A DNA stretch of 64,000 bases, from IMG/VR virus record IMGVR_UViG_3300049434_000014, positions 1 through 64,000 of that record. The stretch is one strand, 5' to 3'. Positions within the stretch are counted from its first letter, which is position 1, and every line of letters starts with the position of its first letter. The DNA is from a virus. A program made the position numbers and the translations under genes. The notes beneath the pieces are model-generated. The model searched no databases. It saw only the letters and a list, made by a program, of their open reading frames with translations, and was not told the DNA's origin. Below are positions 11,379 through 58,073 of the stretch, piece after piece.

Positions 11379-11407
11379 TTGCAAGGTCTACGAGGTCATG
11401 GTACGGT
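11379..11407 (+). promoter_or_regulatory. Sigma70-like extended -10 promoter upstream of the sigma-like gene
   Basis: TTGCAA, 17 nt, then TACGGT, with TGG directly before the -10 (extended -10). The spacer end GGTCATGG is shared with the promoters at 29390, 32355 and 34605. The leader to the start at 11460 is about 45 nt and ends in AAGGGCGAAGGG. Confidence 0.75.
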
Positions 11408-11459: not shown

Positions 11460-12284
11460 ATGTCGACTTCAGTAGTAATGGATTCAGATCACCGTACGGA
11501 TGGCAAGCGGTCAGTGAAGTTAGTGACTGTCCGTCCCGCGAGTCGCAACGGCGATGATGACAGCTTAGAGGAGATTTACGCCACCGAGAAGACTCCTAAC
11601 GCTGGCTCCGATGTGCTTGGCCGTCCGGTGGGCCACGTGGTGGCTCCTGAAGATCGGCTGCCGATCGTGACCGACTGGTCGGGGATGAAGGACTTTGTCA
11701 ACGCTCCCCCTTCCTATGATGTCTTTTACCGCCAGTACCTTTCTTACACTAAGTGGCTCGTGACTCGGTTCGGCGTTCCCGCATCGGATCTAGATGATGT
11801 CGTGATTGATATCATCATGCGCTTCATGGAGCGCGATTCGATTGGTGTGTTCTCCGGTGAATGGTCGACGCGTAGCGCTACGGGTAAGTCGAATTTCCGT
11901 TCCTACTACTCGAGGTTCGTTGTCACCTACGCCCGTGGCAAGAATCGTAACGTGCATAAGCACAATAGCCGCAATCTTTTGATCTGTGATGCTTCTGTTG
12001 ACGATGAGGGCAGCACGTCTTGGTTGGATGTTAATGCCCCTACTTCGTCATTCGAAGACGACGCTGTCGGCTCTATGGACTTCGATGGTCTGGTGTCGTC
12101 GCTGCGGGCCAAGGTCAAGCCTGAGCTGGCCGATGCTGTTGACGCTGTGGTTGAGATGTCGATGGGCGCACCGTCTATCAAGGTCGCCGAGTTGGCTCGC
12201 AAGCTTGGCGTCTCACAGCGGGTCGCCAATGATCAGCTTGCTGCGGTCCGTTCGGTCCTGGGCGATCTGGTCGGATCCCGGTAG
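11460..12284 (+). CDS. Sigma-70-like factor
   Basis: 274 residues from the ATG after AAGGGATCACAAG. After about 80 unstructured residues comes a region-2-like segment (FYRQYLSYTKWLVTRFG, then DLDDVVIDIIMRFMER) typical of sigma region 2. A C-terminal helix-turn-helix (VAELARKLGVSQRVANDQL, about residues 243-261) fits region 4. It has its own promoter, so it is a candidate for controlling middle or late phage genes. It is distant from canonical sigma factors, and a related DNA-binding role remains possible. The stop is in CCGGTAGGATC, which serves the next gene. Confidence 0.65.
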   Translation: MSTSVVMDSDHRTDGKRSVKLVTVRPASRNGDDDSLEEIYATEKTPNAGSDVLGRPVGHVVAPEDRLPIVTDWSGMKDFVNAPPSYDVFYRQYLSYTKWLVTRFGVPASDLDDVVIDIIMRFMERDSIGVFSGEWSTRSATGKSNFRSYYSRFVVTYARGKNRNVHKHNSRNLLICDASVDDEGSTSWLDVNAPTSSFEDDAVGSMDFDGLVSSLRAKVKPELADAVDAVVEMSMGAPSIKVAELARKLGVSQRVANDQLAAVRSVLGDLVGSR

Positions 12285-29367: not shown

Positions 29368-29389
29368 TAAAGATTCATGGTCTGCAGAC

Positions 29390-29418
29390 TTGCAAGGTGT
29401 GCAGGGTCATGGTACGGT
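29390..29418 (+). promoter_or_regulatory. Extended -10 promoter of cassette 1
   Basis: TTGCAA, 17 nt ending in TGG, TACGGT. Upstream ATTCATGGTCTGCAGACTTG is nearly repeated before the promoters at 30734 and 34605. The downstream ACCCGATCAAGGGAGC block supplies the ribosome-binding site. Confidence 0.8.
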
Positions 29419-29460
29419 TCTTCTACAAGGTCAATGAACACCCGATCAAGGGAGCAAGTC

Positions 29461-30090
29461 ATGCCACATGCAGTGCGTCGCACCGTAGTCGCCAAGGACT
29501 TACAAGACGGTGATCTCATCGGAACGGTTGATGGTTCTGATAATCACTTGCTGTGTGGTTCTATGATTGACGGTCGTGTGAGTGATAAAACCAAGTTGGC
29601 TCACTTTCAGGTTCGCGGCTGGCCCAAGGTTATGACGCTTCCGCGCACCACTCCTGTTCTCGTTTCTCGCATGGAGCCCACCGACGAAGAGAGAGCTGTC
29701 GAGCGTCGTTCGTACATGCTTTCTTCTATCGTTTCGATGATTGCTACTGCTGAGCCTGAAATGGATTCGGCTCGTGAGAAGTTGCTAGCTGACTTGAAGT
29801 ATCGTCCAGACTATCACTACAACGCTTACGAGGATTTCATCGAGGCTCAGGTGCGTTTCACTCTTTGGGAAGACGTGAGGAAGACTGCGCTGGGAATCGC
29901 GGAACGCGATAGTGCGGAACCTGACTACATCGCGGCTACGAGGATCGTTCGTGATGAGGTGCTGGAGACTTTGGTTGAGGCTCGCCACGCGTCTCGGAGC
30001 ACATCGGTGATGATCAATGCCACTGAAGACGTGATTCTCGAGGCAAAGAGTCGCTGGCTTCGTCGCCTGAAGTACACGCTAGCTGACTGA
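29461..30090 (+). CDS. Hypothetical accessory protein
   Basis: 209 residues, ATG after AAGGGAGCAAGTC. The N-terminal 60 residues look beta-rich (VVAKDLQDGDLIGTVDGSDN), and the rest is helical. It is alone between its own promoter and a 14 bp terminator, the layout of a moron. Not recognised. Confidence 0.65.
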   Translation: MPHAVRRTVVAKDLQDGDLIGTVDGSDNHLLCGSMIDGRVSDKTKLAHFQVRGWPKVMTLPRTTPVLVSRMEPTDEERAVERRSYMLSSIVSMIATAEPEMDSAREKLLADLKYRPDYHYNAYEDFIEAQVRFTLWEDVRKTALGIAERDSAEPDYIAATRIVRDEVLETLVEARHASRSTSVMINATEDVILEAKSRWLRRLKYTLAD

Positions 30091-30094
30091 TCTT

Positions 30095-30138
30095 GTGACC
30101 GCTCCGAGCCTTTCGCGGGCGAGTCTCGGAGCGGTCAC
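30095..30138 (+). terminator. Terminator of cassette 1
   Basis: A perfect 14 bp stem (GTGACCGCTCCGAG with CTCGGAGCGGTCAC), 16 nt loop, starting 5 nt after the stop codon. Confidence 0.75.
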
Positions 30139-30155
30139 TTCCCCCGGAGGTTGTG

Positions 30156-30242
30156 ATGATGTTTGTTTACGGTCTTTTGACAGGTGGCGTTAGCATTCTC
30201 GTATTGGATTTGTTGATGGACAAATACTTTGGAGGATGGTGA
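30156..30242 (+). CDS. 28-residue membrane peptide
   Basis: ATG five bases after CCGGAGG. MMFVYGLLTGGVSILVLDLL is one membrane span. The stop overlaps the next start (TGATG). Translation signals are good; function unknown. Confidence 0.5.
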   Translation: MMFVYGLLTGGVSILVLDLLMDKYFGGW

Positions 30243-30319
30243 TGATTTGGATCGCTTACAGTTTGGTGTCATTTGTTGCACTGTCTTTAACGATAGAGAT
30301 TTTTAGAAGGTGGTTTTGA
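30242..30319 (+). CDS. 25-residue membrane peptide
   Basis: Starts in the stop of the preceding peptide, with GGAGGATGGTG as ribosome-binding site. IWIAYSLVSFVALSLTI forms a span and FRRWF a basic end. The stop again overlaps the next ATG. Confidence 0.5.
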   Translation: MIWIAYSLVSFVALSLTIEIFRRWF

Positions 30320-30564
30320 TGGCTGAGTTAAGTTTGGATGACGACATAGAGCGCGAGTATGCTATATGGGTTCGGCAGTCTATCGGTAGTGGGTGGAGCC
30401 GGTTTTCACGGTTTTCTGTTGACTTCAATTACTTACGGGAAATCTTGATCCGCATGGCAACGGAGAGTCCTAATGTTGACTGGGCGATCCTGTTTGGACC
30501 TAAGGCTTCAGATGGTCTTTACCCCGACACCACGATGGCCGTGATTCCGGCGTTGCACGGGTAG
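30319..30564 (+). CDS. Hypothetical acidic protein
   Basis: 81 residues, coupled to two tiny membrane peptides. It ends at TAG in CGGGTAGGACTG. Not recognised. Confidence 0.55.
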   Translation: MAELSLDDDIEREYAIWVRQSIGSGWSRFSRFSVDFNYLREILIRMATESPNVDWAILFGPKASDGLYPDTTMAVIPALHG

Positions 30565-30585
30565 GACTGATCACAACTAAATCTT

Positions 30586-30634
30586 GACAGCGACCGAGGG
30601 TACTGTGGCGGCTCCCCTCGATCACGCTGTCAGC
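30586..30634 (+). repeat. Nested inverted repeat in an intergenic region
   Basis: TTGACAGCG and CGCTGTCAG flank an inner pair CCGAGGG/CCCTCG, a 49 nt folded element of unknown role. The gap 30565-30806 has no gene and holds this element, a terminator-like stem and a promoter. Confidence 0.45.
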
Positions 30635-30668
30635 GCTGGGCAGGACGCGTCGCGAAGTGTCCAGCACT

Positions 30669-30711
30669 GAGGGTGGTCTGAGCCTTGATCGGTCAGGTTC
30701 AGACCACCCTC
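30669..30711 (+). terminator. 13 bp hairpin terminator
   Basis: GAGGGTGGTCTGA with TCAGACCACCCTC, 17 nt loop, just upstream of the promoter of the next cassette. Confidence 0.7.
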
Positions 30712-30733
30712 TCAAAATTCATGGTCTGCAGGG

Positions 30734-30763
30734 TTGCGATGTCTTGTACGTGCATGGTATAGT
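30734..30763 (+). promoter_or_regulatory. Extended -10 promoter of the DUF6011 cassette
   Basis: TTGCGA, 18 nt ending in CATGG, TATAGT. Preceded by the shared ATTCATGGTCTGCAG, followed by CTACTACAAG and the CACCCGATAAAGGGAGC ribosome-binding block. Confidence 0.75.
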
Positions 30764-30806
30764 TCTACTACAAGTTCAAGGAATCACCCGATAAAGGGAG
30801 CCAGTC

Positions 30807-31364
30807 ATGCGCACCACCGCACTCGCCAGGAACACCGCCACCCCCGCTCAGAATGACTACGTCAAGAACTTGCTTGCTCGCCTGGATGCTGTGAACGCCA
30901 GGCTCGACGCGAGCCAACGTGATGGTCTCGGTCTTCGTGAAGAGTTCCGTGGTGTGTGGATGCGGGGGAACTTCAGCCGTCAGTTTGCTTCGCAGACGAT
31001 CGCTGAGTTGCTCGCTCTGGTTTCCTCGCTCGAGGGCAAGGTTGCTAAGCCTGCTGTCGCGATCTCTGTCCCTGATGGCCGCTACGCGGTCCGTACGGAC
31101 GCCGAGGATGAGCACTACGCCTTCTACCGCGTGTGGAATGGTGACCGGGCGACGCTGGTCTTCTTGATGGTCTCGGATAACGAGATGCGGGTTAGCCGCG
31201 ACATGGCTCGCACGATCCTTGCCAAGATCGATTCTGTTGGTTCTCTGGAAGCTGCCAAGGCTTACGGGCGCGAGATCGGCGTCTGTGGTGTCTGTAACAG
31301 GACGCTTACGAATCCTGATTCGATCAATGCTGGTATTGGTCCTGTTTGCGCTGGCAAGTTCTGA
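30807..31364 (+). CDS. DUF6011-domain protein
   Basis: 185 residues. The C-terminal 30 residues have the DUF6011 zinc pattern: CGVCNRTLTNPDSINAGIGP followed by VCAGKF (three to four Cys plus the fixed GIGPVC). The middle (DGRYAVRTDAEDEHYAFYRV) is a beta domain often found with it in actinophages, and the N-terminal 80 residues are helical. Function unknown. Single-gene cassette with own promoter and terminator. Confidence 0.75.
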   Translation: MRTTALARNTATPAQNDYVKNLLARLDAVNARLDASQRDGLGLREEFRGVWMRGNFSRQFASQTIAELLALVSSLEGKVAKPAVAISVPDGRYAVRTDAEDEHYAFYRVWNGDRATLVFLMVSDNEMRVSRDMARTILAKIDSVGSLEAAKAYGREIGVCGVCNRTLTNPDSINAGIGPVCAGKF

Positions 31365-31373
31365 TCGGTTGGT

Positions 31374-31401
31374 AGGTGGCTCACCACGCCGGGGGCCACC
31401 T
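31374..31401 (+). terminator. Short terminator hairpin
   Basis: AGGTGGC with GCCACCT (7 bp) followed by CCCTTT, 9 nt after the DUF6011 stop. Confidence 0.5.
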
Positions 31402-31420
31402 CCCTTTCGGAGGGGTTGTT

Positions 31421-31495
31421 ATGATTCATTACTGGCCTACGATTGCGTTCATTATTTTACTGGCGATCCTTTCTCTCTGGAGACGCTTCGGGTAG
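31421..31495 (+). CDS. 24-residue membrane peptide
   Basis: ATG five bases after GGAGGGG. PTIAFIILLAILSLW spans the membrane, ending RRFG at the TAG of a GGGTAGGACTT element. Good translation signals. Confidence 0.5.
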   Translation: MIHYWPTIAFIILLAILSLWRRFG

Positions 31496-31536
31496 GACTT
31501 GTCAAGTTCTGATCTGTGATATGAGGAGTGTGTGTT

Positions 31537-32019
31537 GTGTTTACAGAGTTGCCTCACGTTTTTCTAGGTGGAGAGTGTGGTAAGTCTACGTACCGACAAA
31601 GAATTGCTATCCCACGACTTAGGGAAGCGGGCATTACGTTTTTCAATCCTCAGGTTGCTGTAGGAGACTGGCACCACGGATTGATCGAGCTTGAGGCCGT
31701 TGCCAAAGACAATGCTGTTCAGATCTTGATTGTCATTGGTGGCGCCACTCGCGCTGGCGCTTCTATCCTCGAGGCTGAGGAATATGTTTGTTACGGGAGC
31801 TTTGTACATCTCGTAATAGATAACATGCCTGACGGAACTGTCATTGATGGGCACGTTATTACTGGACGTGAGTTGGAAGACGTTAACAGAATGCGTGAGT
31901 ACTTGCGTAGTGTGGTTAAGCGACGTCGTCCTCACCTTCCTATTCACAATACTGTTGATGATGCTGTTACTGCCATCATTAAGATTGCGGCTGCGTATGG
32001 GTTTGGAGGTGGGTCATGA
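31537..32019 (+). CDS. Nucleoside 2-deoxyribosyltransferase-like protein
   Basis: 160 residues from the GTG eight bases after GAGGAG. It matches the Nuc_deoxyri_tr2 pattern: VFLGGECGKSTYRQ (about 8-21), FFNPQVAVGDW (about 34-44), then VIGGATRAGASILEAEEYVC (about 69-88) with the likely catalytic Glu. The family exchanges bases between deoxyribonucleosides; related folds also cleave nucleotides or NAD. In a phage it may serve nucleotide salvage or defence/counter-defence. ATGA overlap with the next gene. Confidence 0.75.
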   Translation: MFTELPHVFLGGECGKSTYRQRIAIPRLREAGITFFNPQVAVGDWHHGLIELEAVAKDNAVQILIVIGGATRAGASILEAEEYVCYGSFVHLVIDNMPDGTVIDGHVITGRELEDVNRMREYLRSVVKRRRPHLPIHNTVDDAVTAIIKIAAAYGFGGGS

Positions 32020-32345
32020 CAAAGGTTTGGCAGATGCCTGATGGCACGGTGCGTGTTCTCTACGCTCCTGAAGATGAAGAGATCGCTCGCGCTGAGCGCG
32101 CGGGTGGCGTTGAGATGAGGGCGGTCCGTCCAGCTCGCCCAGCGCGGGAATTTCTCAAGGCGTTGGGCCACAGCGATGCGGACATGGCGCTCGCCATCCG
32201 GGCTGGCGTTCGTGCTGAGGACTTCAACGTCTCGCCTGGCACGCGACGAGCCTTCGAAGACTGCTTCGTTTTGTATCGGGCTTATCACCGGGCGTTCTCG
32301 GACTTCTGGTCTATCGCCAACGCTGCGCATACGGATGACAGGTAG
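32016..32345 (+). CDS. Hypothetical protein
   Basis: 109 residues, ATGA-coupled to the deoxyribosyltransferase-like gene, so possibly functionally linked. An N-terminal beta part and a helical C-terminus. Not recognised. Confidence 0.6.
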   Translation: MTKVWQMPDGTVRVLYAPEDEEIARAERAGGVEMRAVRPARPAREFLKALGHSDADMALAIRAGVRAEDFNVSPGTRRAFEDCFVLYRAYHRAFSDFWSIANAAHTDDR

Positions 32346-32354
32346 AATTATAGT

Positions 32355-32383
32355 TTGACGTGCTTGCAGGGTCATGGTACGGT
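32355..32383 (+). promoter_or_regulatory. Extended -10 promoter
   Basis: TTGACG, 17 nt ending in CATGG, TACGGT. Followed by CTACTACAAG and CCCGATCAAGGGAGC. Confidence 0.8.
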
Positions 32384-32423
32384 TCTACTACAAGTTCAGC
32401 CAACCCGATCAAGGGAGCCTCAA

Positions 32424-32969
32424 ATGTCAGTCACGTTCGCACCCCAGTACTTTGATGGTGACGTCGCTGGCTACGAGGTTATCTGTGATGGTTGTGTTGT
32501 CGCGGAGGCGGATTCCTACGTCGAGGCCAAGCGGTTTGCTGGCTTGCACGAGAAGGTTTGCCGTGGAGAGTGTGTCGGCGTCGGGCCGGAGATTCGTGAG
32601 ATCACTGACGTTCCGTCTGTGAATCTGAACAACTCTAATGCGCACTTCATTCTTGACTTGCTCGGTTCGCTCCCTGAGGGCGATGACGGGTTGGATCGTG
32701 GTCCGTTTGATTGTGGCGACATGTCCGGCGAGTGCTCTGCCGAGAGTTTCCTAGGTCGGGTACTGTTGGCTCAGGCTTTGGGTGGCTCAGATGTGGGCAG
32801 GCCAGCTTCTGTGCTGGATCAGGATTCTGAGCTGCGTCCAGGTTGGGTGGGCGGTGCGCGGGTGATCGATTGTGGTCGGCCTGAGGGCTATGCCGACGAG
32901 CGGTTGGCTCAGCTGGCTGTGGTTGCGGAGTGGGCCATGCGTGCGGGACGCTCTGTTACGTGGGCTTAG
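32424..32969 (+). CDS. Hypothetical accessory protein with Cys-rich N-terminus
   Basis: 181 residues, ATG after AAGGGAGCCTCAA. A small N-terminal domain with ICDGCVVAEADSY and HEKVCRGEC may bind zinc; the remainder is acidic. Single-gene cassette with promoter and T-run terminator. Confidence 0.65.
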   Translation: MSVTFAPQYFDGDVAGYEVICDGCVVAEADSYVEAKRFAGLHEKVCRGECVGVGPEIREITDVPSVNLNNSNAHFILDLLGSLPEGDDGLDRGPFDCGDMSGECSAESFLGRVLLAQALGGSDVGRPASVLDQDSELRPGWVGGARVIDCGRPEGYADERLAQLAVVAEWAMRAGRSVTWA

Positions 32970-32999
32970 TTGGGTATGACCAACTAGAGACTATTTTTT
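32967..32999 (+). terminator. Intrinsic terminator with T run
   Basis: TAGTTGG with CCAACTA (7 bp, 6 nt loop), then GAGACTATTTTTT. It begins in the stop codon of the preceding gene. Confidence 0.75.
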
Positions 33000-33024
33000 A
33001 CTCCCCTTGGAGGGGTGATTCGCT

Positions 33025-33834
33025 ATGTCCAGATCGACAGTTTTAGATCCTGCCAAGCGTGTGATGATGGTTCTGCTTTCCATCGCGATGATGCTTGGCG
33101 TTGGCGCTTCACTGGCTTCGTGCTCGAGCGACGATGATGCACAGACTGTTGCTCCGTCTGCGTTTGTTTCCCCAGCTGACGGTAAGACTTACTGTCGTTG
33201 GGTAAATATCCGCAGTGAGTGTGAGGGTTCTCCGTATCCGGCAGCGGTTTATCCAATGCCGCAGGATCAGCCGGTCCGCGATCCTGGTATGTCTGCTATG
33301 GACTTCCTGGTACTGAATGCTTTGTTCCAGGATAGTTTGATGTATCATTCCTACTACTACCGTCCGTGGTATTACAATAATTACATTGGTCCGGCGTGGT
33401 CTCGCCACCCGGGTTATGTCGAGTATGGTTATGGACATCGTCCAGTCACTCGAATCACCACGGTGAACAATTACAACACCACGATCAATCACGTTAATAC
33501 GAAGTATGGGTCACAGGAAAGGTCTGCCGAATCTAAGGCTGTTTACAAGACTGCCAACGGCAAGACGTATAAGGGAAATACGGTTCCCTCTAATGCTTTC
33601 AAGGGTACCAACGTTCCTGTCAACTCTCCTGCAGCTAAGAATGCTCCAACCAAGGCGACTACGCCTTCTAATACGACTCCTTCTGGGAAGAAGATTAACA
33701 GCGGTTCCAGTACTCCCTCAGGCAAGTCGTATTCAGGTTCTAGTTCGTCTAGTCGTTCCAGCGGTTCTAGTTCGTCTAGCAGCTCTAGTCGTTCCAGCGG
33801 CGGTTCTAGTTCGTCGTCTCGGTCAGGGAAGTAG
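33025..33834 (+). CDS. Lipoprotein with Tyr-rich middle and Ser-rich tail
   Basis: 269 residues. N-terminal signal (VMMVLLSIAMMLGVGASLASC) with lipobox LASC and the modified Cys at about 33. Two extracellular cysteines follow. Residues 110-150 are rich in Tyr/Trp/His, and the last 60 are almost only Ser/Gly/Arg (SGSSSSSRSSG repeats). It should be anchored outside the cell. A cell-surface role such as receptor masking is inference. Its ribosome-binding site GGAGGGG lies in a small hairpin (CCCCTTGGAGGGG). Confidence 0.7.
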   Translation: MSRSTVLDPAKRVMMVLLSIAMMLGVGASLASCSSDDDAQTVAPSAFVSPADGKTYCRWVNIRSECEGSPYPAAVYPMPQDQPVRDPGMSAMDFLVLNALFQDSLMYHSYYYRPWYYNNYIGPAWSRHPGYVEYGYGHRPVTRITTVNNYNTTINHVNTKYGSQERSAESKAVYKTANGKTYKGNTVPSNAFKGTNVPVNSPAAKNAPTKATTPSNTTPSGKKINSGSSTPSGKSYSGSSSSSRSSGSSSSSSSSRSSGGSSSSSRSGK

Positions 33835-33839
33835 CCGTC

Positions 33840-34376
33840 ATGGCTCTGCCATATTCGATCTGTGGGTTGCTTGCTGAAGAGGGTGTCGAACCCTACGCCT
33901 GGCAGACAGGATTCTATTGGCAAGATTTGGTTGAGCCTGATCCTGCGGTTGCTGTGGAGTTTGTTGAGCACGAGATGGACAGGGAAGGTTTGGATGTTGG
34001 CCACACGTTAGTCACCTTCCTTGCCGCTCGTGTGCATTCTGGAAACATACAAAGATGTGATGGCATTCCTAATGCCGACTTCGAGGTGGATGGAGACGAG
34101 GAGTTTCGTCTCCATCCCGAGCCGTCCCTTCACACTGTGTGCGGGATGATTTATCCCACGGGTAAGCCTTATTGCGATTTGTGGATGTCACATGGGCCAC
34201 GTGTCGCTTACGTTGATGCTTGGCAGTGCATTCGAGATGAAGGACAAACGTTGTTAGTCGCTTGTGTACATACTGGCGACGAGACTGAAGATGGCTTACA
34301 GTTTGATTTCGCTCTGCCTGCAATCAAGAATGCAGACGAGATGGAGCAGGTTCTTAAGGAGATATGGACGCCATGA
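33840..34376 (+). CDS. Hypothetical acidic protein
   Basis: 178 residues, start 5 nt after the lipoprotein stop. Rich in Asp/Glu with scattered Trp and Cys. Not recognised. ATGA overlap with the next gene. Confidence 0.6.
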   Translation: MALPYSICGLLAEEGVEPYAWQTGFYWQDLVEPDPAVAVEFVEHEMDREGLDVGHTLVTFLAARVHSGNIQRCDGIPNADFEVDGDEEFRLHPEPSLHTVCGMIYPTGKPYCDLWMSHGPRVAYVDAWQCIRDEGQTLLVACVHTGDETEDGLQFDFALPAIKNADEMEQVLKEIWTP

Positions 34377-34585
34377 TTTCTGCAACTACACCTAAGACCA
34401 AGTCTCTTGCTGAGACACGACAAATGGTTTCTTTCATGTTTGTTGTTTCGATGGTTGGTTTCTTTATTCTTGGCGTTTGTGCTTTCTTGAAATCAGATGC
34501 ATGGGCTTTGGTTATGTTGGGTTCGGCATCCATGATTGCTTTGTGTTTCGGGTTGCTCATCTGGGCTCAGGACACGCTCAAGTAA
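34373..34585 (+). CDS. Small two-pass membrane protein
   Basis: 70 residues from the ATG in the ATGA overlap; an in-frame ATG at 34364 sits too close to AAGGAG. Two spans at about 20-38 and 46-65. Confidence 0.6.
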   Translation: MISATTPKTKSLAETRQMVSFMFVVSMVGFFILGVCAFLKSDAWALVMLGSASMIALCFGLLIWAQDTLK

Positions 34586-34604
34586 AGATTCATGGTCTGA
34601 TGAC

Positions 34605-34633
34605 TTGACCTGTTTGCATGGTCATGGTATGGT
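34605..34633 (+). promoter_or_regulatory. Extended -10 promoter of the ardC cassette
   Basis: TTGACC, 17 nt ending in CATGG, TATGGT: the best -35 and -10 of the family. Preceded by AAAGATTCATGGTCTG as at 29371, followed by CTACTACAAG and ACCCGATCAAGGGAGC. Confidence 0.85.
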
Positions 34634-34677
34634 TCTACTACAAGTTCACGAACCACCCGATCAAGGGAGCAGGAATC

Positions 34678-35658
34678 ATGGCCAGTCGTACCGCCACTCG
34701 CAAGCCGCGTCAGACTGACGAGGAGCGCGATGCGAAGGTTGCCGCACTGAAGGCTCAGCTGGACGAGACGGTTGCCTCGCTCGACAGCGAGGAGCGGTGG
34801 GAAGAAATGCTCCGCACCGTGGCTCAGTTCGGGACTAAGTATTCCTGGGGTAACCAGCTTCTGATCATGGCTCAGGCCGCTCAGCGCAACTTCGATCCCC
34901 AGCTGGTCATGGGGTTCAGTGCCTGGAAAGCCAAGGGTCGGATGGTTATCAAGGGCCAGACTGGAATCAAGATCTGGGCTCCTAACTTCCGCTACCCGAC
35001 CGAGGCTGAGATCGCTCGCGCCGCCGCTGAGGGCAAGCCGGTGCGTCGCGACTCTGAGGGTCGCCCAGCGAAGATCCTGGTTGGCTATCGCATTGAGCAC
35101 GTCTTCGATGTCTGCCAGACGGAGGGTGCTGAGGTTGAGATCCCGGCTCCCGTCATTGAGCGGATCCGCATCCGGGTGAGTGGTCCTTCCCCTGAGTTGC
35201 TGACTGGTGACGATGTCTCGGGTGCGTGGGATGCGGTGCAGGGCCTCATTGAGGCGCACGGCTACCGGGTCGAGCGCGGCTCGTGTGTCGGTGCGAACGG
35301 CTACACCGATCCTCGCACGATGGTTGTCAAGGTCCGTGACGATGTCTCTCCTGCTCAGGCGTTGAAGACCTTGATTCATGAGCTGGCGCACATTGAGTGC
35401 CTGCACGTTGAGGACATGACGTCCTACCTGCTCCACCAGGGTCGCCAGGAAACCGAGGCTGAGTCGGTTGCGTACGTTGTCTGCGGTGCGTTAGGACTCG
35501 ACTCAGGGGCCTACTCGGCCCCTTACGTGCGGGGATGGTCGAACGGTGATGCCACCGTGCTGGCCGCTGCAGCTGAGCTTGTGATCCGCTCTGCGGGTCG
35601 GATCCTTAAGGGCCTCGAGGCTGCTGGCGTCGAGGAGCGCGAGCTAGTCGCTGCCTGA
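34678..35658 (+). CDS. ardC: ArdC-like antirestriction protein with metallopeptidase domain
   Basis: 326 residues. The N-terminal ArdC domain (DUF1738-like) shows YSWGNQLLI (about 55-63), GFSAWKAKGRMVIKGQTGIK (79-98) and IWAP. The C-terminal zinc-peptidase domain has HELAH at 234-238 and a downstream Glu in QETEAESVAY (258-267), the HExxH...E arrangement of the ImmA/IrrE clan. Plasmid ArdC protects incoming DNA from type I/II restriction; here it would protect phage DNA. It has its own promoter and terminator, as expected of an early-expressed anti-defence gene. Confidence 0.85.
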   Translation: MASRTATRKPRQTDEERDAKVAALKAQLDETVASLDSEERWEEMLRTVAQFGTKYSWGNQLLIMAQAAQRNFDPQLVMGFSAWKAKGRMVIKGQTGIKIWAPNFRYPTEAEIARAAAEGKPVRRDSEGRPAKILVGYRIEHVFDVCQTEGAEVEIPAPVIERIRIRVSGPSPELLTGDDVSGAWDAVQGLIEAHGYRVERGSCVGANGYTDPRTMVVKVRDDVSPAQALKTLIHELAHIECLHVEDMTSYLLHQGRQETEAESVAYVVCGALGLDSGAYSAPYVRGWSNGDATVLAAAAELVIRSAGRILKGLEAAGVEERELVAA

Positions 35659-35674
35659 CCGGTAGGACTGAAGT

Positions 35675-35713
35675 GGAGGATCCCAGCTCTCGACGCGGGC
35701 GCTGGGATCCTCC
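35675..35713 (+). terminator. Terminator of the ardC cassette
   Basis: A perfect 13 bp stem (GGAGGATCCCAGC with GCTGGGATCCTCC) around a 13 nt loop, 17 nt past the stop. Confidence 0.75.
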
Positions 35714-35728
35714 CTCCAATTTACCTAC

Positions 35729-35757
35729 TTGTATGGTTTGCAGGGTTATGGTAGTGT
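35729..35757 (+). promoter_or_regulatory. Extended -10 promoter
   Basis: TTGTAT, 17 nt ending in TATGG, TAGTGT; a weaker member of the family. Followed by ATTACAAGGTCAAG and ACCCGATCAAGGGAGC. Confidence 0.65.
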
Positions 35758-35799
35758 TTCATTACAAGGTCAAGTTACACCCGATCAAGGGAGCGTTCG

Positions 35800-36003
35800 A
35801 TGTATGAGGCGACAGGCAATATGAACAATGTAGCCGCTCTGTCTGAGGCTGAGCTGGCCATCGAGCTGGCGGGAGCCAAGGCTCGATTGAAGTGGGCTCG
35901 CGAGAATCGCATCCCTCAGTCGTCGGACTTCTATTACATGGCCAAGACCGGAATTCGTATTTTCAGTGACGAGACGCGTGCGCGTAGTTTGGTCGGTGTG
36001 TGA
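35800..36003 (+). CDS. Hypothetical small protein
   Basis: 67 residues, ATG after AAGGGAGCGTTCG. Helical (LSEAELAIELAGAKARLKWA). The stop overlaps the next ATG (TGATG). Confidence 0.6.
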   Translation: MYEATGNMNNVAALSEAELAIELAGAKARLKWARENRIPQSSDFYYMAKTGIRIFSDETRARSLVGV

Positions 36004-36953
36004 TGGGTAAGCCTCGCCCGATCGATACTTTCAGACATGAGTTGACAAGTGCTATTGCTGAGCAGTTCGAATCGCTTTCGCATCCTGTTGACCGTGAGGT
36101 GCTTAAGGGTGTTATTCGACGCATCACTGATGCTTGGCGTGTGGAACGGGAAGATTCTATGTCTTCCATTCCTGGCGAAGAGGGTAAAGTCTGGGGATAC
36201 GAGTTTGAGGTCACGCTGCCGTGGCGTCCTGAGTCTGAGCAAGAGACTGAGGCTCGTGAGGCCCGCTGGGCGGCTATGGTTTGGGATCCTGAGGATGGGC
36301 CTCCTATGCCGGGTGTGACGATGCTTCAGTTGCTACGTCAAGATACGTGGTGGATGTATCATCCGAAGCCTTACTGGGAGGGTTCGTCTCCCTTGCTGTC
36401 TGTGCGTGTTGAAAACATGACGCATTCTCATCGGATGGCTGTATTGGCGTGGCTGCGCTCTCGCGCGAATGAGTTGCACGCTCAGGTTGCTGGCGAGTTG
36501 TTGGGTGCTCCCGATGACGTGTGGTCGTCTTACGATGTGGAGCTTCCGGAGGAATGGCTCGAAGAGCAAGAGCTTGTTTGGGCTTTGGATCGCTGGACCA
36601 CTCCGTGGGCTGAGTCTCCATTGACGTGGAAGCCAATTACTGAGGCTCCGTGTGATGGCACCGTTATTATGGCTGCGGATATGCAGGCTAACGATGCATT
36701 TCGTATAAAGTGGGATTCATACTGGCGTGGATGGATCATTGTTGATGATGGTCCTCTGTACGGTACTCCACCTTCTTGTGTTATCTATAGGTGGCGTGAT
36801 CTTCGTGAGGATGAGAAACCTGCTCCTGTTCTCGCTTGCGAGCATTACGGATATGATGAGACTGATTGTGGTTCATGTGGAGCTGTTTGGTATCCGTGCG
36901 ATCACGGCGGTGTGCATGGTTCCGCTGAGTGTTCTGCTTGTGATCAGGAATAG
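36003..36953 (+). CDS. Hypothetical protein with C-terminal zinc-binding cluster
   Basis: 316 residues from the ATG in the TGATG overlap (GTG at 36000 also in frame). Trp-rich middle (TWWMYHPKPYWEG). Residues 225-275 resemble a DUF551-like segment (WKPITEAPCDGTVIMA). The last 40 residues hold CEHYGYDETDCGSCG and further Cys/His, likely two zinc sites. Function unknown. Confidence 0.6.
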   Translation: MGKPRPIDTFRHELTSAIAEQFESLSHPVDREVLKGVIRRITDAWRVEREDSMSSIPGEEGKVWGYEFEVTLPWRPESEQETEAREARWAAMVWDPEDGPPMPGVTMLQLLRQDTWWMYHPKPYWEGSSPLLSVRVENMTHSHRMAVLAWLRSRANELHAQVAGELLGAPDDVWSSYDVELPEEWLEEQELVWALDRWTTPWAESPLTWKPITEAPCDGTVIMAADMQANDAFRIKWDSYWRGWIIVDDGPLYGTPPSCVIYRWRDLREDEKPAPVLACEHYGYDETDCGSCGAVWYPCDHGGVHGSAECSACDQE

Positions 36954-39454: not shown

Positions 39455-39460
39455 CTACCC

Positions 39461-39510
39461 ATAAGGGTGAACGTACGAGCTTGCATGTCGTACTTCCTGC
39501 ATGGTAGTTT
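39461..39510 (+). promoter_or_regulatory. Promoter with upstream direct repeat, leaderless gene 1
   Basis: TTGCAT (39481), 18 nt ending in CATGG, TAGTTT (39505-39510). The ATG at 39517 begins 6 nt after the -10, where transcription should start, so the mRNA is probably leaderless. The 28 bp at 39461-39488 (ATAAGGGTGAACGTACGAGC and on) recur exactly at 39970-39997. Confidence 0.75.
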
Positions 39511-39938: not shown

Positions 39939-39969
39939 TCGTTCTCGTATGTCACCTGTAAGGGTACCT

Positions 39970-40018
39970 ATAAGGGTGAACGTACGAGCTTGCATGTTGT
40001 ACTAGCCCGTGCTATCTT
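39970..40018 (+). promoter_or_regulatory. Promoter with upstream direct repeat, leaderless gene 2
   Basis: TTGCAT (39990), 17 nt ending in TGC, TATCTT (40013-40018); ATG at 40025 lies 6 nt downstream. The 28 bp exact repeat 39970-39997 covers the -35 and upstream sequence, so a shared regulator is likely. Confidence 0.75.
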
Positions 40019-50158: not shown

Positions 50159-51482
50159 TGCAGGTATGCAGATGCTTGCTGATCTCGGCATTGCTCTGCA
50201 GGACCCTTCGCTGACTGAGATTAGTTCTGTGGGTGGCACAGAGATCTCTGATGAGCAGTTGCTTGATCCTGTCGCCGAGCCTGACTCTCCTCCTATCTTT
50301 ACGTTGCAGCGTATGGTTTTCGCTTCGATGATGAAGCAGGTAATGCAGGTGGTTCCGCTGCGTGACTTCTACCCTCAGCTTAAGAACGTGTTGATTGAGG
50401 TCACTGATGGTCGGCTGTCCTTGACGGGCTCGGACTCGACGTCGTCTGTGGTGTCTTCGACTACGGCTGTTCGTGTGGATAATCCTGGCCGTGTGTTGGT
50501 GGGCGCTAATCGCTTCGCTGCGGTGATTGCTCGAGCTGCGGGTGCGGAGGTCACCATTCGGTGTGAGGGTGCGTCTGTGCTCATCTCATCGGGCGCGGCG
50601 TCGTGGTCGCTGCGGGTGGCGTCTGTTCAGGACTATCCTCCGTTGCCTGATCTCGGAGATATCTCCTGGTACGATGTTGACCGGTCTGCGTTTGCTCGCG
50701 CGATCGGCGGCACTCGTTATGCTGCTTCTAAAGACGATAACAAAGATCACATCATGCAGCTTGATATTGCTGGCGGTGTTGTGACGGCAACGGATGATCA
50801 GCGTTTCGCTCAGGTCCGGGAGAGTTTGCCTGTTGAGTTCGGGTGTCAGCTTCCTGCGTCTGGTGCGGATCTGTTGATTAAGATGCTTGAAAACAATGAT
50901 GCTGCACAGTTCCGTATGGCTGATACGGACTTTCACATTGTTGCAGAGATTGGTCCTGTGCATGCTCCTGACCGTGTAATCATTGCTCATTTGATGCGTC
51001 CGTTCCCTCCGGAAGCTCGGACGGCTCTCGCTGCTCCGCAGGCCGACAATCGTGATGTCCTCACGGTGGCTGCTGACGATCTGATCGAGGTGTTGCGCCG
51101 CGCTGCTCCTACGGCTGATGAGGAGACGGCAGCGGTCGCTCTGCGGATCGGTTCGCCTGAGCCTGGCAAAGTGACGGTCGCCTCGCGCAATCGCTACGGC
51201 GATTTGAGCACTGAGGTGATTGAGGCTGCGTTCGTCGTCGCTGGCTCGGAGCGGGTCGCTGAGGCGCGCACGGTGGTGGTGAGCCACGTTCATCTGCTCC
51301 AAGCCGTCAGGGCGTCTGTGGAGGCGTCTCCGTTGGGCGACGAGGAGGCTGGCGCTGGGATGGTTCAGCTCTTGCTTGGCCAGCCTCGGTCGCGCTCCCG
51401 TCCTGCGTACGTGATGGTCACCGACGCCGGTAGGACCGTGCAGGCCGTGCTCTCGCAGGTCCGTTCGGACTGGATATCTTGA
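50148..51482 (+). CDS. dnaN: Beta sliding clamp (DnaN-like)
   Basis: 444 residues. Typical clamp segments in order: LKNVLIEVTDGRLSLTGSD (domain 1), VLVGANRFAAVIARA, ASVQDYPPLPDL (the domain 2 entry), GGVVTATDDQRFAQVRE and, in domain 3, RNRYGD and QAVLSQVRSDW near the C-terminus. It would ring the DNA and hold the phage family A polymerase, loaded by delta and delta-prime. A phage-coded DnaN with a family A polymerase is uncommon. It starts inside the previous gene. Confidence 0.85.
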   Translation: MSDDAGMQMLADLGIALQDPSLTEISSVGGTEISDEQLLDPVAEPDSPPIFTLQRMVFASMMKQVMQVVPLRDFYPQLKNVLIEVTDGRLSLTGSDSTSSVVSSTTAVRVDNPGRVLVGANRFAAVIARAAGAEVTIRCEGASVLISSGAASWSLRVASVQDYPPLPDLGDISWYDVDRSAFARAIGGTRYAASKDDNKDHIMQLDIAGGVVTATDDQRFAQVRESLPVEFGCQLPASGADLLIKMLENNDAAQFRMADTDFHIVAEIGPVHAPDRVIIAHLMRPFPPEARTALAAPQADNRDVLTVAADDLIEVLRRAAPTADEETAAVALRIGSPEPGKVTVASRNRYGDLSTEVIEAAFVVAGSERVAEARTVVVSHVHLLQAVRASVEASPLGDEEAGAGMVQLLLGQPRSRSRPAYVMVTDAGRTVQAVLSQVRSDWIS

Positions 51483-51507
51483 CATGGTTTCATGGTCATG
51501 CTATGTT
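51479..51507 (+). promoter_or_regulatory. Extended -10 promoter overlapping the dnaN stop
   Basis: TTGACA, 17 nt ending in ATGC, TATGTT; a consensus -35. Downstream CCGTTAAAGGAGG (51525-51537) is a ribosome-binding block repeated at 51813 and 57718. Confidence 0.8.
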
Positions 51508-51541
51508 GACATGACATGCAGGATCCGTTAAAGGAGGCAGG

Positions 51542-51802: not shown

Positions 51803-51830
51803 TCATACAGTTCCGTTAAAGGAGGCAGGG

Positions 51831-52453: not shown

Positions 52454-52899
52454 GTAACATTGGAATCACCGGTACAAGGTTTGGTCTTGCGATACCGCAA
52501 TCTAAGAGATTATTTGAAGTTCTTAGGCGCCTTTTTGTACCTGATTCTGTTTTACATCATGGTGACTGTAAAGGAGTGGATGAGCAAGGCGCGGCTTTAG
52601 CTCGAGCGATGGGTTATGAGCTTTGTTCACATCCACCGAGCGACGATAAGTTACGAGCGTTTGTGCCGTCACGGTTTTTGATGTGGCCGTTGCCTTACAT
52701 GGAGCGTAATCGCGCGATCGTTTTGCAGTCGAGCGTGCTTGTTGCTTGTCCTGACAGCCAGGTGGAGACTCTGCGGTCGGGAACGTGGTCTACGGTGCGC
52801 ATCGCACGCGAGCTGGTACTACCTGTGGTGCTGGTGTTCCCTGACGGGCGAGCCTCGCTGGAAGTTGGCAACTTGCAAGCTGAGGTACCGGTATGCTAG
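52450..52899 (+). CDS. SLOG-family nucleotide-binding protein (DUF2493/YspA-like)
   Basis: 149 residues. GITGTRFG at 4-11, HHGDCKGVDEQGAALAR (about 36-52) and MERNRAIVLQSSVLVACPDS (about 80-99) give the SLOG/DprA-like Rossmann pattern. The family binds nucleotides or their derivatives; in bacteria it appears in stress and defence contexts. Specific ligand unknown. Confidence 0.65.
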   Translation: MSNIGITGTRFGLAIPQSKRLFEVLRRLFVPDSVLHHGDCKGVDEQGAALARAMGYELCSHPPSDDKLRAFVPSRFLMWPLPYMERNRAIVLQSSVLVACPDSQVETLRSGTWSTVRIARELVLPVVLVFPDGRASLEVGNLQAEVPVC

Positions 52900-52942
52900 T
52901 TTGTGTTCACGTTCAACGGAGATAAATCCAAGGAGGATGACC

Positions 52943-54898: not shown

Positions 54899-54970
54899 GC
54901 GTCGGTAGCTCAGAGGAAGAGCAGCTGCCTCTTAAGCAGCGGGTCGGGATATCGTAATTCCCTCGACGCA
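54899..54970 (+). tRNA. tRNA-Lys (CUU)
   Basis: Acceptor GCGTCGG with TCGACGC (one G-U), D-arm GCTC/GAGC, anticodon arm GCTGC-CTCTTAA-GCAGC with anticodon CTT, variable GGGTC. The T-arm is irregular (GGGA/TCCC around a 9-base loop). No encoded CCA. Confidence 0.75.
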
Positions 54971-54997
54971 CGGGAGACCTGGACATGTCCTACCCCA

Positions 54998-55015
54998 TAC
55001 TAAACTGATCCCGTG
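54998..55015 (+). repeat. TACTAAACTGNNCCCGTG element, copy 1
   Basis: The same element recurs at 55440 and, slightly changed, at 55577. Each is followed within 40-70 nt by a strong hairpin. The TAAACT part fits a -10 hexamer, but no consistent -35 is seen. Confidence 0.5.
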
Positions 55016-55052
55016 AGATATTGGGCCGATCCATGGTTCCTCTCTACACGTT

Positions 55053-55094
55053 CTGATGCTTAGGGTTGATCGCACGATTGGCCCTAAGCATCAG
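55053..55094 (+). terminator. 13 bp hairpin between the two tRNA genes
   Basis: CTGATGCTTAGGG with CCCTAAGCATCAG, 16 nt loop, ending 9 nt before the second tRNA. Could be a terminator or a processing signal. Confidence 0.55.
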
Positions 55095-55103
55095 GAAATG
55101 CAA

Positions 55104-55179
55104 GCCTCGATAGCTCAGCCTGGACGAGAGCAGATGCCTTTTAAGCATCGGGTCGTTGGTTCAAATCCAACTCGGGGTA
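55104..55179 (+). tRNA. tRNA-Lys (UUU)
   Basis: Acceptor GCCTCGA with TCGGGGT, D-arm GCTC/GAGC with GG in the loop, anticodon arm GATGC-CTTTTAA-GCATC with anticodon TTT, canonical T-arm GTTGG-TTCAAAT-CCAAC. No encoded CCA. Confidence 0.9.
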
Positions 55180-55180
55180 C

Positions 55181-55393
55181 GTGAAATTATATAGAACCCC
55201 TTCTGAGGTGCAATCCGCGCAGTTACGTTTTCGCTGGAGTTCTGAGAAAGCAGCTAGAGTTATTTCCCGACATCGGGAATACTATATTCCAGTTGTAGAT
55301 TTTGTTAAACCTAATTGGTTCCCGTTGGCAACACTCAGTTTGAGTGTAGTTACGAATTGTGTAACAATTTTAGTTGCTTTGCTGATAAAATAA
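55181..55393 (+). CDS. Possible small membrane-anchored protein
   Basis: 70 residues from GTG two bases after the tRNA, with no good ribosome-binding site. The C-terminal 22 residues (TLSLSVVTNCVTILVALLIK) could span the membrane. A/T-rich codons. Uncertain. Confidence 0.35.
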   Translation: MKLYRTPSEVQSAQLRFRWSSEKAARVISRHREYYIPVVDFVKPNWFPLATLSLSVVTNCVTILVALLIK

Positions 55394-55439
55394 ACTGTAT
55401 TGGTGACCAGGCACATGTCACTGATTCCTTCACCGGGTC

Positions 55440-55457
55440 TACTAAACTGTACCCGTG
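55440..55457 (+). repeat. TACTAAACTGNNCCCGTG element, copy 2
   Basis: Preceded by TAAACTGTATTGGTGACC at 55391 and followed by GCACGTTAAATGGTT at 55488 and the palindrome at 55506. Confidence 0.5.
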
Positions 55458-55505
55458 CTGCCAAGTCCCTTCCTCGGACATCGCCAAGCACGTTAAATGG
55501 TTATG

Positions 55506-55535
55506 CCTCCTCGGTAAGGCGCCTTACCGAGGAGG
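55506..55535. repeat. Perfect 30 bp palindrome
   Basis: CCTCCTCGGTAAGGC followed at once by its exact reverse complement. No loop, so it could serve as a cruciform, a dimer binding site, or a terminator stem. It lies in a region (55394-55912) with no convincing gene. Confidence 0.75.
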
Positions 55536-55576
55536 TAACATAAATTAAACTGTATTGGGGGACCTGGAGTAAGTCC

Positions 55577-55593
55577 GCTAAACTACTCCCGTG
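55577..55593 (+). repeat. CTAAACT..CCCGTG element, copy 3
   Basis: Preceded by TAAACTGTATTGGGGGACC at 55546 and followed by GCACGTTAAACAGTT at 55598 and the hairpin at 55610, the same order as copy 2. Confidence 0.5.
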
Positions 55594-55609
55594 TTTTGCA
55601 CGTTAAACA

Positions 55610-55664
55610 GTTCCCGACAGGATCGTTATGGAGGGTGCACCTTTCGGATGATCCTGTCGGGAAC
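55610..55664 (+). repeat. 15 bp hairpin with 25 nt loop
   Basis: GTTCCCGACAGGATC pairs perfectly with GATCCTGTCGGGAAC. The loop itself holds AGGGTGCACCTT, a near palindrome. It looks like the body of a short structured RNA or an operator. Confidence 0.65.
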
Positions 55665-55912
55665 GCTAATGACGAATACTAATCTCGGTCGTCGGGAGTC
55701 AAGGCTGTCTTTCGCAGATCCACGGGTATTAGTCATCACCGGAGAGTTAAGGTTCGTTCGGCCGGTTTTTATTGCGATACTTCCTTACCGGCTGCATCTT
55801 CATCTTGATGAACGTTCCTGCTCCCGACGACCTTCGACTTGACATGCATGGTCGTGTATGGTTGGGTAGTACTAGACAAGGTTGCAAGGTCGAGCGAGAA
55901 GGCGGTAAAGCC

Positions 55913-57139
55913 ATGCAGGTTACGGAGTTGTTCTCCAATGAGGCGCTTGGGGAGATGGTTGCTGCGGGTTATGTGCGTATGCAGCGGCATCCTCGTTTCC
56001 ACGATGGCGTCCCTTACGTCATCTTCAATTACACGGAGACCGCTGCTTACGAGCGTGTGTGGAATCCGGTCACTGAGGTGTGTCGTGGCTTGATTGTGAA
56101 CAACGCGACGCTCGAGGTTGTCGCACGTCCGTTCCGTAAGTTCTTTAATTACGGTGAGCCTGGCTCTCCTGTTCTCCATATGGATGAGGGTGCGGACGTC
56201 TATGACAAACTAGACGGCTCGCTCGGCATTCTTTACCAGCTTCCTGATGGCGAATATGCGATTGCCACGCGCGGTTCGTTTGATTCCGAGCAGGCTCGCC
56301 ACGCCACAAAGGTGTGGCAGGATCGCTACGCGGGCAAGTTCACTCCCTATCCTGGCGGCACTTATCTGTTTGAGATCATCTATCGTGCCAATCGCATTGT
56401 CTGCGACTATGGGGACATGGACGATCTCGTGTTGCTCGGTGCTGTCGACATTGAGACTGGTGTTTCTTTTACGCCTCACGAGGGTGAGGCGATTGGTGAG
56501 TGGCCTGGCCCTAAGGCTGAGATGTTTCAGTACTGGTCGCTGGCAGCTGCTCTGGCAGCGCCTCCCCGTCCGGGTAAGGAGGGCTTCGTCCTTCGGCGTT
56601 GGCATTCCGAGGATCGCATTAAGATCAAGCAGGATGATTACGTTGCGTTGCACCGGATCATTACGAATTGCACGGCGCGTCGGATCTGGGAATACCTCGC
56701 GGTGTTCGCTTGCCAACCTTATGCGACAACGGGCGTTGAGTTCTTAGTGCGTAAGTTGATGATGGGTCCTGCTGACATTAATCGGATCCTCGCGGTTGGC
56801 TCTAACTGGCTGGAGACTTTCCTGGTTGGTACTCCGGAGGAGTTTCGTGATTGGGTGCAGGACAAGGTGTGGGAATTCCTTAGGGCTCGCACGTCGCGTT
56901 TGCAGGATCTGGAGTTGTCTTTGCATCTGATGTTGGCTACAGCGGATGTCCCTCGCTCTGCGGTCGGCGGTCCGTCTCGTGAAGAGGCTAAGGCGTTCGC
57001 CGCAGCGGGTCGGTCTCATCCTGATTTTCAGCTGCTTATGACCATGCTTCGTGGCCATGAGATCGAGTCGACTATTTGGCGTGAGCTGCGCCCTGCCCAC
57101 GAGCTTCCTTACCGGGCAGTGGATGAGTCTGTGGCTTAG
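55913..57139 (+). CDS. rnlA: T4 Rnl1-like RNA ligase
   Basis: 408 residues from ATG after GGCGGTAAAGCC. Nucleotidyltransferase motif I is KLDGS with Lys99, preceded by CRGLIVNN and ARPFRKFFNYGE, the order seen in T4 RNA ligase 1; later motifs include YLFEIIYRANRIVCDY, EGFVLR (IV) and RIKIKQDDY (V, lysine pair). It seals broken RNA, classically the anticodon loop of tRNA-Lys. Two phage tRNA-Lys genes lie upstream and the end-healing kinase/phosphatase 1.3 kb downstream. Confidence 0.9.
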   Translation: MQVTELFSNEALGEMVAAGYVRMQRHPRFHDGVPYVIFNYTETAAYERVWNPVTEVCRGLIVNNATLEVVARPFRKFFNYGEPGSPVLHMDEGADVYDKLDGSLGILYQLPDGEYAIATRGSFDSEQARHATKVWQDRYAGKFTPYPGGTYLFEIIYRANRIVCDYGDMDDLVLLGAVDIETGVSFTPHEGEAIGEWPGPKAEMFQYWSLAAALAAPPRPGKEGFVLRRWHSEDRIKIKQDDYVALHRIITNCTARRIWEYLAVFACQPYATTGVEFLVRKLMMGPADINRILAVGSNWLETFLVGTPEEFRDWVQDKVWEFLRARTSRLQDLELSLHLMLATADVPRSAVGGPSREEAKAFAAAGRSHPDFQLLMTMLRGHEIESTIWRELRPAHELPYRAVDESVA

Positions 57140-57545: not shown

Positions 57546-57678
57546 TGTTAATAGTGCTGTTCTGATGCGGCGTGGAAGTTTTGGTTTGGCGAGAGGCCCG
57601 AGAATGTGAGCAGCTCATACCTGCAGAGCGTGACTTGTCAAGTGCGCAGCGTGGTCGCAAGTTTCGGGTAGGACTGTG

Positions 57679-57707
57679 TTGCATGGTTGTACGGCTTATG
57701 GTACGGT
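57679..57707 (+). promoter_or_regulatory. Extended -10 promoter
   Basis: TTGCAT, 17 nt ending in TATGG, TACGGT, followed by CCGTTAAAGGAGG at 57718. It is fed by a CGGGTAGGACT element just upstream. Confidence 0.8.
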
Positions 57708-57734
57708 TGTACCAGTTCCGTTAAAGGAGGAAGC

Positions 57735-58001: not shown

Positions 58002-58004
58002 GTT

Positions 58005-58033: not shown

Positions 58034-58073
58034 TGTCTTTCCTAGCACCTATCAGGAAGGGCATTTAACGGAC

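Follow-up and report, generated by a model that had tools for sequence, protein, structure and literature searches.

Repeated promoter and leader copies with a GNUNAA mini-hairpin in the non-structural half of an uncultured phage genome

Promoter and leader copies in the genome

The window, meaning the whole 64,000-base stretch of DNA that was analysed, comprises bases 1–64000 of a 153,455-base uncultured-virus record (IMG/VR IMGVR_UViG_3300049434_000014), and it contains five intergenic copies of a promoter with a short leader, located at 29390, 30734, 32355, 34605 and 35729, which are studied here together with a mini-hairpin found in their leaders. The window encodes a DnaB helicase, a clamp loader, DNA polymerase I, UvsX and a TROVE protein, while the structural genes lie at ~102–138 kb of the record, placing the five-copy interval in the non-structural half. 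Relatives were collected via capsid-protein alignment, and the nearest one found was IMG/VR 3300049324_000002 (146 kb; hereafter G001), whose capsid protein is 79% identical and whose genome is colinear with the one studied.

All five copies carry extended −10 promoters of the sigma70 type with TGG preceding the −10, and the design reported in the initial annotation (TTGNNN, 17–18 nucleotides (nt), TGG, TANNNT) was confirmed at every coordinate. The shared blocks described alongside it were only partly recovered: CTACAAG was observed in four of the five copies, with ATTACAAG in the fifth, and the leader block ACCCGATCAAGGGAGC was identical in four and differed by a single mismatch in that at 30734, whereas the upstream block ATTCATGGTCTGCAG is restricted to three copies, those at 29390 and 30734 matching exactly and that at 34605 having two mismatches. 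The repeated homologous stretches are 44–96 nt long, and a blastn search with copy 1 against its own 153 kb genome returned the other four copies at E values of 3e-20 to 3e-13, far beyond chance. The promoters and upstream blocks are as follows, including four of the further promoters described below:

29373..29387, + strand: upstream block ATTCATGGTCTGCAG, copy 1
29390..29418, + strand: promoter 1, TTGCAA-17-TACGGT, extended −10 (TGG)
30717..30731, + strand: upstream block ATTCATGGTCTGCAG, copy 2
30734..30763, + strand: promoter 2, TTGCGA-18-TATAGT
32355..32383, + strand: promoter 3, TTGACG-17-TACGGT
34588..34602, + strand: upstream block, copy 4, two mismatches
34605..34633, + strand: promoter 4, TTGACC-17-TATGGT
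35729..35757, + strand: promoter 5, TTGTAT-17-TAGTGT
11379..11407, + strand: class-A promoter ahead of the sigma-factor-like gene 11460–12284
51479..51507, + strand: class-A promoter
52873..52902, + strand: class-A promoter of the UvrD-type helicase gene (52943), present in G001 too
57679..57707, + strand: class-A promoter

The sites have the extended −10 form of sigma70-type (sigmaA) promoters, with a −35 TTG, a 16–18 nt spacer and TGN before TANNNT. The pattern TTG-N17/18(TGG)-TANNNT has nine plus-strand matches in the genome against 2.2 expected under a Markov model, and the laxer TGN form (TTG-N3-N17/18-TANNNT) has 13, all intergenic and ahead of genes, with no minus-strand match for either form. 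Further promoters of this kind, termed class A, were detected at 11379, 39481, 39990, 51479, 52873 and 57679 in the window and at 90287 and 94590 in the record, and with eight sites outside it the class is not a property of the five-copy interval. A 39-nt block with ACCCATAAGGGT/ACCTATAAGGGT, a 95% identical repeat, stands directly before two class-A promoters (39456–39494 and 39965–40003) and is operator-like.

A mini-hairpin with a fixed loop and covarying arms

The leader block ACCCGATCAAGGGAGC belongs to a wider class of mini-hairpins of the form N3-GNUNAA-N3′ at ribosome-binding sites, which the initial annotation had not described. Other leader types found at the same place in the genome include TCC-GTTAAA-GGA, GGG-GATCAA-CCC and GGA-GATAAA-TCC, among others, beside CCC-GATCAA-GGG. 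The hairpins at the five copies and representative ones elsewhere in the window are listed below:

29441..29452, + strand: CCC-GATCAA-GGG overlapping the ribosome-binding site, copy 1
30787..30798, + strand: CCC-GATAAA-GGG, copy 2
32404..32415, + strand: CCC-GATCAA-GGG, copy 3
34656..34667, + strand: CCC-GATCAA-GGG, copy 4
35780..35791, + strand: CCC-GATCAA-GGG, copy 5
40360..40371, + strand: GGG-GATCAA-CCC (arms inverted), then AGGAGG
51524..51535, + strand: TCC-GTTAAA-GGA
51812..51823, + strand: TCC-GTTAAA-GGA, at an internal gene without its own promoter
52918..52929, + strand: GGA-GATAAA-TCC in the helicase-gene leader, then AAGGAGG
57717..57728, + strand: TCC-GTTAAA-GGA

Every six-base loop pattern in which four positions are fixed (3840 patterns) was scanned within 40 nt upstream of gene starts. 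The scan revealed that GNTNAA ranked first, with perfectly complementary three-base arms in 20/50 upstream occurrences and in 5/507 elsewhere (binomial p = 2e-23 against 1/64), while the reversed loop pattern, taken as a control, gave one upstream hairpin. When identical copies were collapsed, 12 of the 42 distinct upstream 12-mers were still paired (p = 1.5e-12) against 5/500 elsewhere, and seven arm types were represented. The end of the 3′ arm is mostly located 6–16 nt before the start codon, with 8 nt being the commonest distance.

Four more such hairpins were found at gene starts of G001, and the leaders of the orthologous helicase genes, GGA-GATAAA-TCC here (52943) and GGG-GATAAA-CCC in G001 (27239), differ by a compensatory change with the loop kept. 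Counting base pairs across the paired rows gave three pair types at two stem positions and two at the third; these rows were chosen for pairing, so that the loop scan and the collapsed-copy count constitute the independent test. A stem that changes in matched pairs around a fixed loop speaks for a common control signal, so far unrecognised, and not for recent gene insertions. The GNUNAA hexaloop would fit a U-turn (UNR) pattern. In Rfam 15, only two tRNA genes in the window gave matches above the gathering score, and none was obtained for the mini-hairpin.

Genes behind the promoters and promoter families in relatives

The genes behind the five promoters, and the hairpins at their 3′ ends, are as follows:

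29461..30090, + strand: gene behind promoter 1, 209 amino acids (aa), no match in phage records
30095..30138, + strand: hairpin 3′ of gene 1, −32.4 kcal/mol, putative terminator or processing site
30669..30711, + strand: strong hairpin adjoining promoter 2, −38.4 kcal/mol, z −8.3
30807..31364, + strand: gene behind promoter 2, DUF6011 protein, 185 aa
31370..31405, + strand: hairpin 3′ of gene 2, approximate limits, −24.6 kcal/mol
32424..32969, + strand: gene behind promoter 3, 181 aa, with a 42% identical homologue in G001 that is promoter-headed there too
32966..32987, + strand: weak stem-loop then U-run, 3′ of gene 3
34678..35658, + strand: gene behind promoter 4, ArdC N-terminal domain and M78 metallopeptidase-like (anti-restriction family)
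35676..35715, + strand: hairpin 3′ of gene 4, adjoining promoter 5, −34.5 kcal/mol
35800..36003, + strand: first gene behind promoter 5, 67 aa

The ArdC-type gene would fit, by its family, an early anti-defence role. One or two genes followed by a strong hairpin had been proposed for most copies, and this arrangement holds for copies 1, 2 and 4, where the hairpins rank 10, 21 and 5 among 218 gene ends, but not for copy 3, with its weak stem and U-run, nor for copy 5, which has none; promoter 5 heads a longer run (36003–36953 next) with no hairpin between the genes or after them. The strong hairpins after genes 1, 2 and 4 are without U-tracts, so that they are termed terminators only putatively.

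As for the relatives, only one close relative has a name, Microbacterium phage Magritte, which grows on Microbacterium foliorum; its capsid protein and that of the studied phage share 58% identity, and terminase and portal match as well. G001, though the nearest relative, is itself distant; another genome, G002, duplicates part of G001 at 99.995% identity and was of no further use. No close relative at the DNA level was obtained among annotated phages, no relative from the search of viral contigs with the leader pattern or from that of genome contigs, and no close relative with ArdC or the DNA polymerase as single queries.

The initial annotation had read the interval as a modular accessory region of moron-like cassettes for rapid gene gain. 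On such a reading, each promoter-gene-hairpin unit would have been inserted as a self-contained foreign unit, with the interval as a landing pad. Morons are defined for lambdoid phages as cited in PMC1524935, and the units resemble them in that a gene has its own promoter (as judged by sequence) with a hairpin behind it: four of the five units consist of promoter, one gene and hairpin. Several of the genes are absent from the nearest relative, namely those behind promoters 1, 2, 4 and 5, and homologues of those behind promoters 2, 3 and 4 are scattered in unrelated phages. The interval as a whole matches G001 poorly (1/12 genes with a homologue against 60/153 of the other non-structural genes, p = 0.058), as would be expected of a plastic stretch, and for the D genes of G001 the corresponding counts are 4/16 and 62/164. 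G+C content at third codon positions is also raised in promoter-headed genes (0.686 against 0.542 in other non-structural genes, p = 7e-6), which would suit a foreign origin as well as the use of host-like codons to express genes strongly and early, without deciding between the two; in codon adaptation to the structural genes, the promoter-headed genes are not separated (p = 0.99).

However, genes headed by promoters of class A or of class B, described below, are no more accessory than the others, being conserved in G001 in 6/17 cases against 55/148 (p = 1). The only interval gene shared with G001, that at 32424, is cassette-headed in both phages, and class-A promoters also head conserved core genes, the sigma-factor-like gene at 11460 and the UvrD-type helicase gene at 52943, before both of which they are kept in G001. 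Moreover, unlike those of morons, the promoters are near-identical repeats. The overall G+C deviation of the five genes is inconsistent (percentiles 42, 85, 89, 97 and 60), and no integrase of the PF00589 family was found, so that a moron expressed from a prophage is not indicated. Orthologous genes under a different promoter class here and in G001 (72703/43398, 67068/44996 and 90358/57477) further indicate that promoters have been swapped independently of genes. We therefore consider the insertion of foreign cassettes unlikely.

Promoter core and leader are themselves separable, since the same leader hairpin occurs behind two unrelated cores, that of class A and that of class B (TAACGTT...CGATATAC), recurring at 70.7–72.1 kb. 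Class B has ~8 copies at 70.6–73.0 kb, one per small gene. At 70.6–73.1 kb of the record, ~8 small genes form a tandem array in which a separate class-B promoter precedes most genes, and the TAA of this promoter frequently doubles as the stop codon of the preceding gene. G001 has a family of its own, TTGCGT...TATGCT followed after 6 nt by ATGACGAACA, with 18 copies of the start sequence (reversed coordinates 17–58 kb); in most copies the −10 is exactly placed for a leaderless mRNA, and unrelated proteins share the first residues M-T-N-(T/I), so that this version adds its own first codons to the genes served. Private families were likewise detected in Magritte (TTGTGCGTTAGCGCGT..., leader CCCCACGAAGGGAATCA, ~14–20 copies), G017 (CTTGACTCTAGTCAAG, 12 copies), G012 (TTGACAGTTG, 8 copies) and G004 (TTGACTTAGG, 6 copies). 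From this pattern, rather than from a dated history, we infer concerted evolution of the promoter and leader modules within each phage. Pairwise promoter identities tolerant of gaps were dropped as too permissive (null 0.44 ± 0.17).

Another repeat, GGTAG(G/T)AC, occurs 59 times on the plus strand of the whole record, as against 3 + 2 minus-strand occurrences; it is found at gene junctions, is rare among the structural genes and, in 30 of the 59 plus-strand copies, lies 5–6 nt before ATG or GTG; examples in the window are at 793, 1387, 3670, 5152, 21842, 28974, 30560, 31491, 35661 and 49266. Its GGTAGTAC form contains no Shine-Dalgarno core and may therefore be either the −10 of a promoter or a repeat associated with gene starts; in G001 (reversed 49495) the repeat coincides exactly with the −10 of a leaderless cassette. 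A region of ~4–5 kb at ~145.6–150.9 kb of the record is nearly devoid of called genes and holds many GACAAGTC and CGACTACTC repeats, the latter being enriched in G001 too.

Interpretation, known systems and neighbouring genes

Given the copies, their intergenic placement, the covariation of the hairpin and the comparison with relatives, all of which are shown by the sequences, the best explanation, and one that we regard as probable, is a module for early expression that is private to the phage and includes a new RNA element. Each site would be a start module for both transcription and translation: a host-type sigma70/sigmaA extended −10 promoter would start the mRNA near the CTACAAG block, and a leader of ~38 nt would carry the three-base-pair mini-hairpin with its GNUNAA hexaloop, overlapping the ribosome-binding site and usually followed by one gene. 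The hairpin may act as a common control of translation or mRNA stability through a factor that binds it, and transcripts may terminate at the hairpins behind the genes. Together, the ~13 promoters and ~20 RNA hairpins probably co-ordinate the early expression of host-takeover, anti-defence and regulatory genes, among which the sigma-like factor could switch on later promoter classes; the modules would be kept alike within each phage and would serve conserved and accessory genes equally. More tentatively, and with the balance of our judgement somewhat against it, the GNUNAA mini-hairpin could be a new class of cis-acting RNA whose hexaloop is recognised by a phage or host factor, controlling the translation or decay of ~20 early mRNAs as one post-transcriptional regulon, whichever promoter they start from.

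The leader might instead be an extended Shine-Dalgarno sequence copied along with the promoter, with the complementarity of CCC and GGG having no function. In the pyrimidine-first types the 3′ arm is indeed part of the Shine-Dalgarno, the CCC/GGG and TCC/GGA arms lying in good ones (AAGGGAG, AAAGGAGG), and identical copies inflate the raw counts. In the purine-first types, however, GGG-GATCAA-CCC-AGGAGG and GGA-GATAAA-TCC-AAGGAGG, the arms are inverted, the Shine-Dalgarno is separate and downstream, and pairing and loop are kept, so that conservation of the Shine-Dalgarno does not account for the pairing. Since the excess of paired arms also survives the collapsing of copies and the orthologous helicase leader shows a compensatory change, we judge this alternative quite unlikely.

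BoxB elements of nut sites are tiny hairpins with a short purine-rich loop, a GNRNA pentaloop, in early leaders, and the present element is similar to the lambda nut sites; a short hairpin with a purine-rich loop in several early-type leaders, with further hairpins 0.5–1 kb downstream, could thus be an antitermination site through which early transcription continues past the hairpins that follow the first genes. The element is nevertheless a hexaloop, no N-like protein was identified, and its locking to the ribosome-binding site and start codon, together with its presence at internal genes without their own promoter (e.g., 51812), fits translation better than nut sites, making antitermination very improbable. 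That the repeats are recombination or replication sites is scarcely credible, for although their homologous stretches could recombine and gene content differs among relatives, they are strictly oriented with transcription, purely intergenic, at a fixed distance from start codons and provided with a promoter-like core.

Several points weigh against the early-expression module itself. The use of sigmaA and the early timing are read from sequence, and gene starts were taken from a simple home-made caller. The element was found only in the studied phage (20 hairpins) and G001 (four) and not in the more distant relatives, being unseen in Magritte, G003–G005, G007, G008, G011, G012 and G017. Of the 20 hairpins, two or three that lie unusually placed relative to the start (e.g., 41577 and 55901) may be chance occurrences, of which ~0.8 were expected, and a stem of three base pairs, weak alone, would matter only with the help of a particular loop fold or of a binder. 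The sigma assignment of 11460 also comes from a low-confidence model (mean pLDDT 48), with no sigma match in Pfam or PHROGs.

Among known systems, the SAS/ESAS elements of Cluster K mycobacteriophages occur as many near-identical copies upstream of start codons (PMC3203893), and ESAS contain SigA-like promoters with −35 and −10 hexamers at 17–18 bp spacing (PMC11373665). The copies described here share with them the location in the non-structural half, a single orientation, the position before the starts of unrelated genes and SigA-like hexamers; overlap with the ribosome-binding site and complementary outer triplets (GGG...CCC) are likewise features of SAS, and the ESAS consensus also differs between Cluster K subclusters. 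Nonetheless, the SAS 13-mer GGGATAGGAGCCC had only three matches at ≤2 mismatches in the 64 kb window against 1.1 expected, none at these starts, and, as a counterpart of the 17-bp imperfect inverted repeat of ESAS, no inverted repeat of at least 8 bp (exact seed 6) was detected at any of the five sites, a search that could miss very imperfect repeats. The element is therefore not a member of SAS/ESAS, though it works like them. SAS is a fixed 13-mer that is not known to form a hairpin, whereas the GNUNAA loop here is fixed and the arms covary, which is the result that distinguishes the element from known kinds.

Cluster O mycobacteriophages carry several strongly predicted SigA-like promoters per genome, some of them leaderless (PMC4351075), in likeness to the leaderless promoter-start cassettes of G001. 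Those promoters are not described in PMC4351075 as one repeated family with shared leaders, and the 17-bp repeat of Cluster O, a palindrome, lies for the most part away from promoters.

Phage genomes frequently have repeats of their own at gene starts, SAS/ESAS among them, for which no role is known. In the present repeat, the promoter core and the RNA hairpin, with its covarying stem and fixed loop, are parts independent of each other, and this offers a concrete, testable molecule. Since each phage of the lineage keeps its own promoter and leader family alike and swaps the family before orthologous genes, the lineage also provides a usable case of concerted evolution of control signals.

The putative phage sigma factor at 11460..12284 (+ strand) was recognised by a Foldseek structure search, in which the top matches of its model were bacterial sigma factors (best E 1.5e-3). 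The gene adjoins the clamp-loader gene and is conserved in G001, G008, G012 and Magritte (gp60); a Sigma70_r2 profile run over the genome gave only a 12-bit match, located elsewhere. As the model resembles sigma factors, a cascade from 11460 to class B or to GGGTAG(G/T)ACT repeats as later promoter classes is plausible, albeit speculative.

Before the TROVE (Ro-like) gene, the non-coding stretch 41400–41590 has a strong fold (z −3.6) with a tRNA-like T-arm, TTGGGTTCGATATCCCAA, and is a candidate Y RNA, with no Rfam match. Finally, at 54899–59516, two tRNA-Lys genes (CTT and TTT) lie beside a T4-type RNA ligase (55913) and a polynucleotide kinase/phosphatase (58482), a group that looks like a repair kit against a host nuclease cutting tRNA-Lys.

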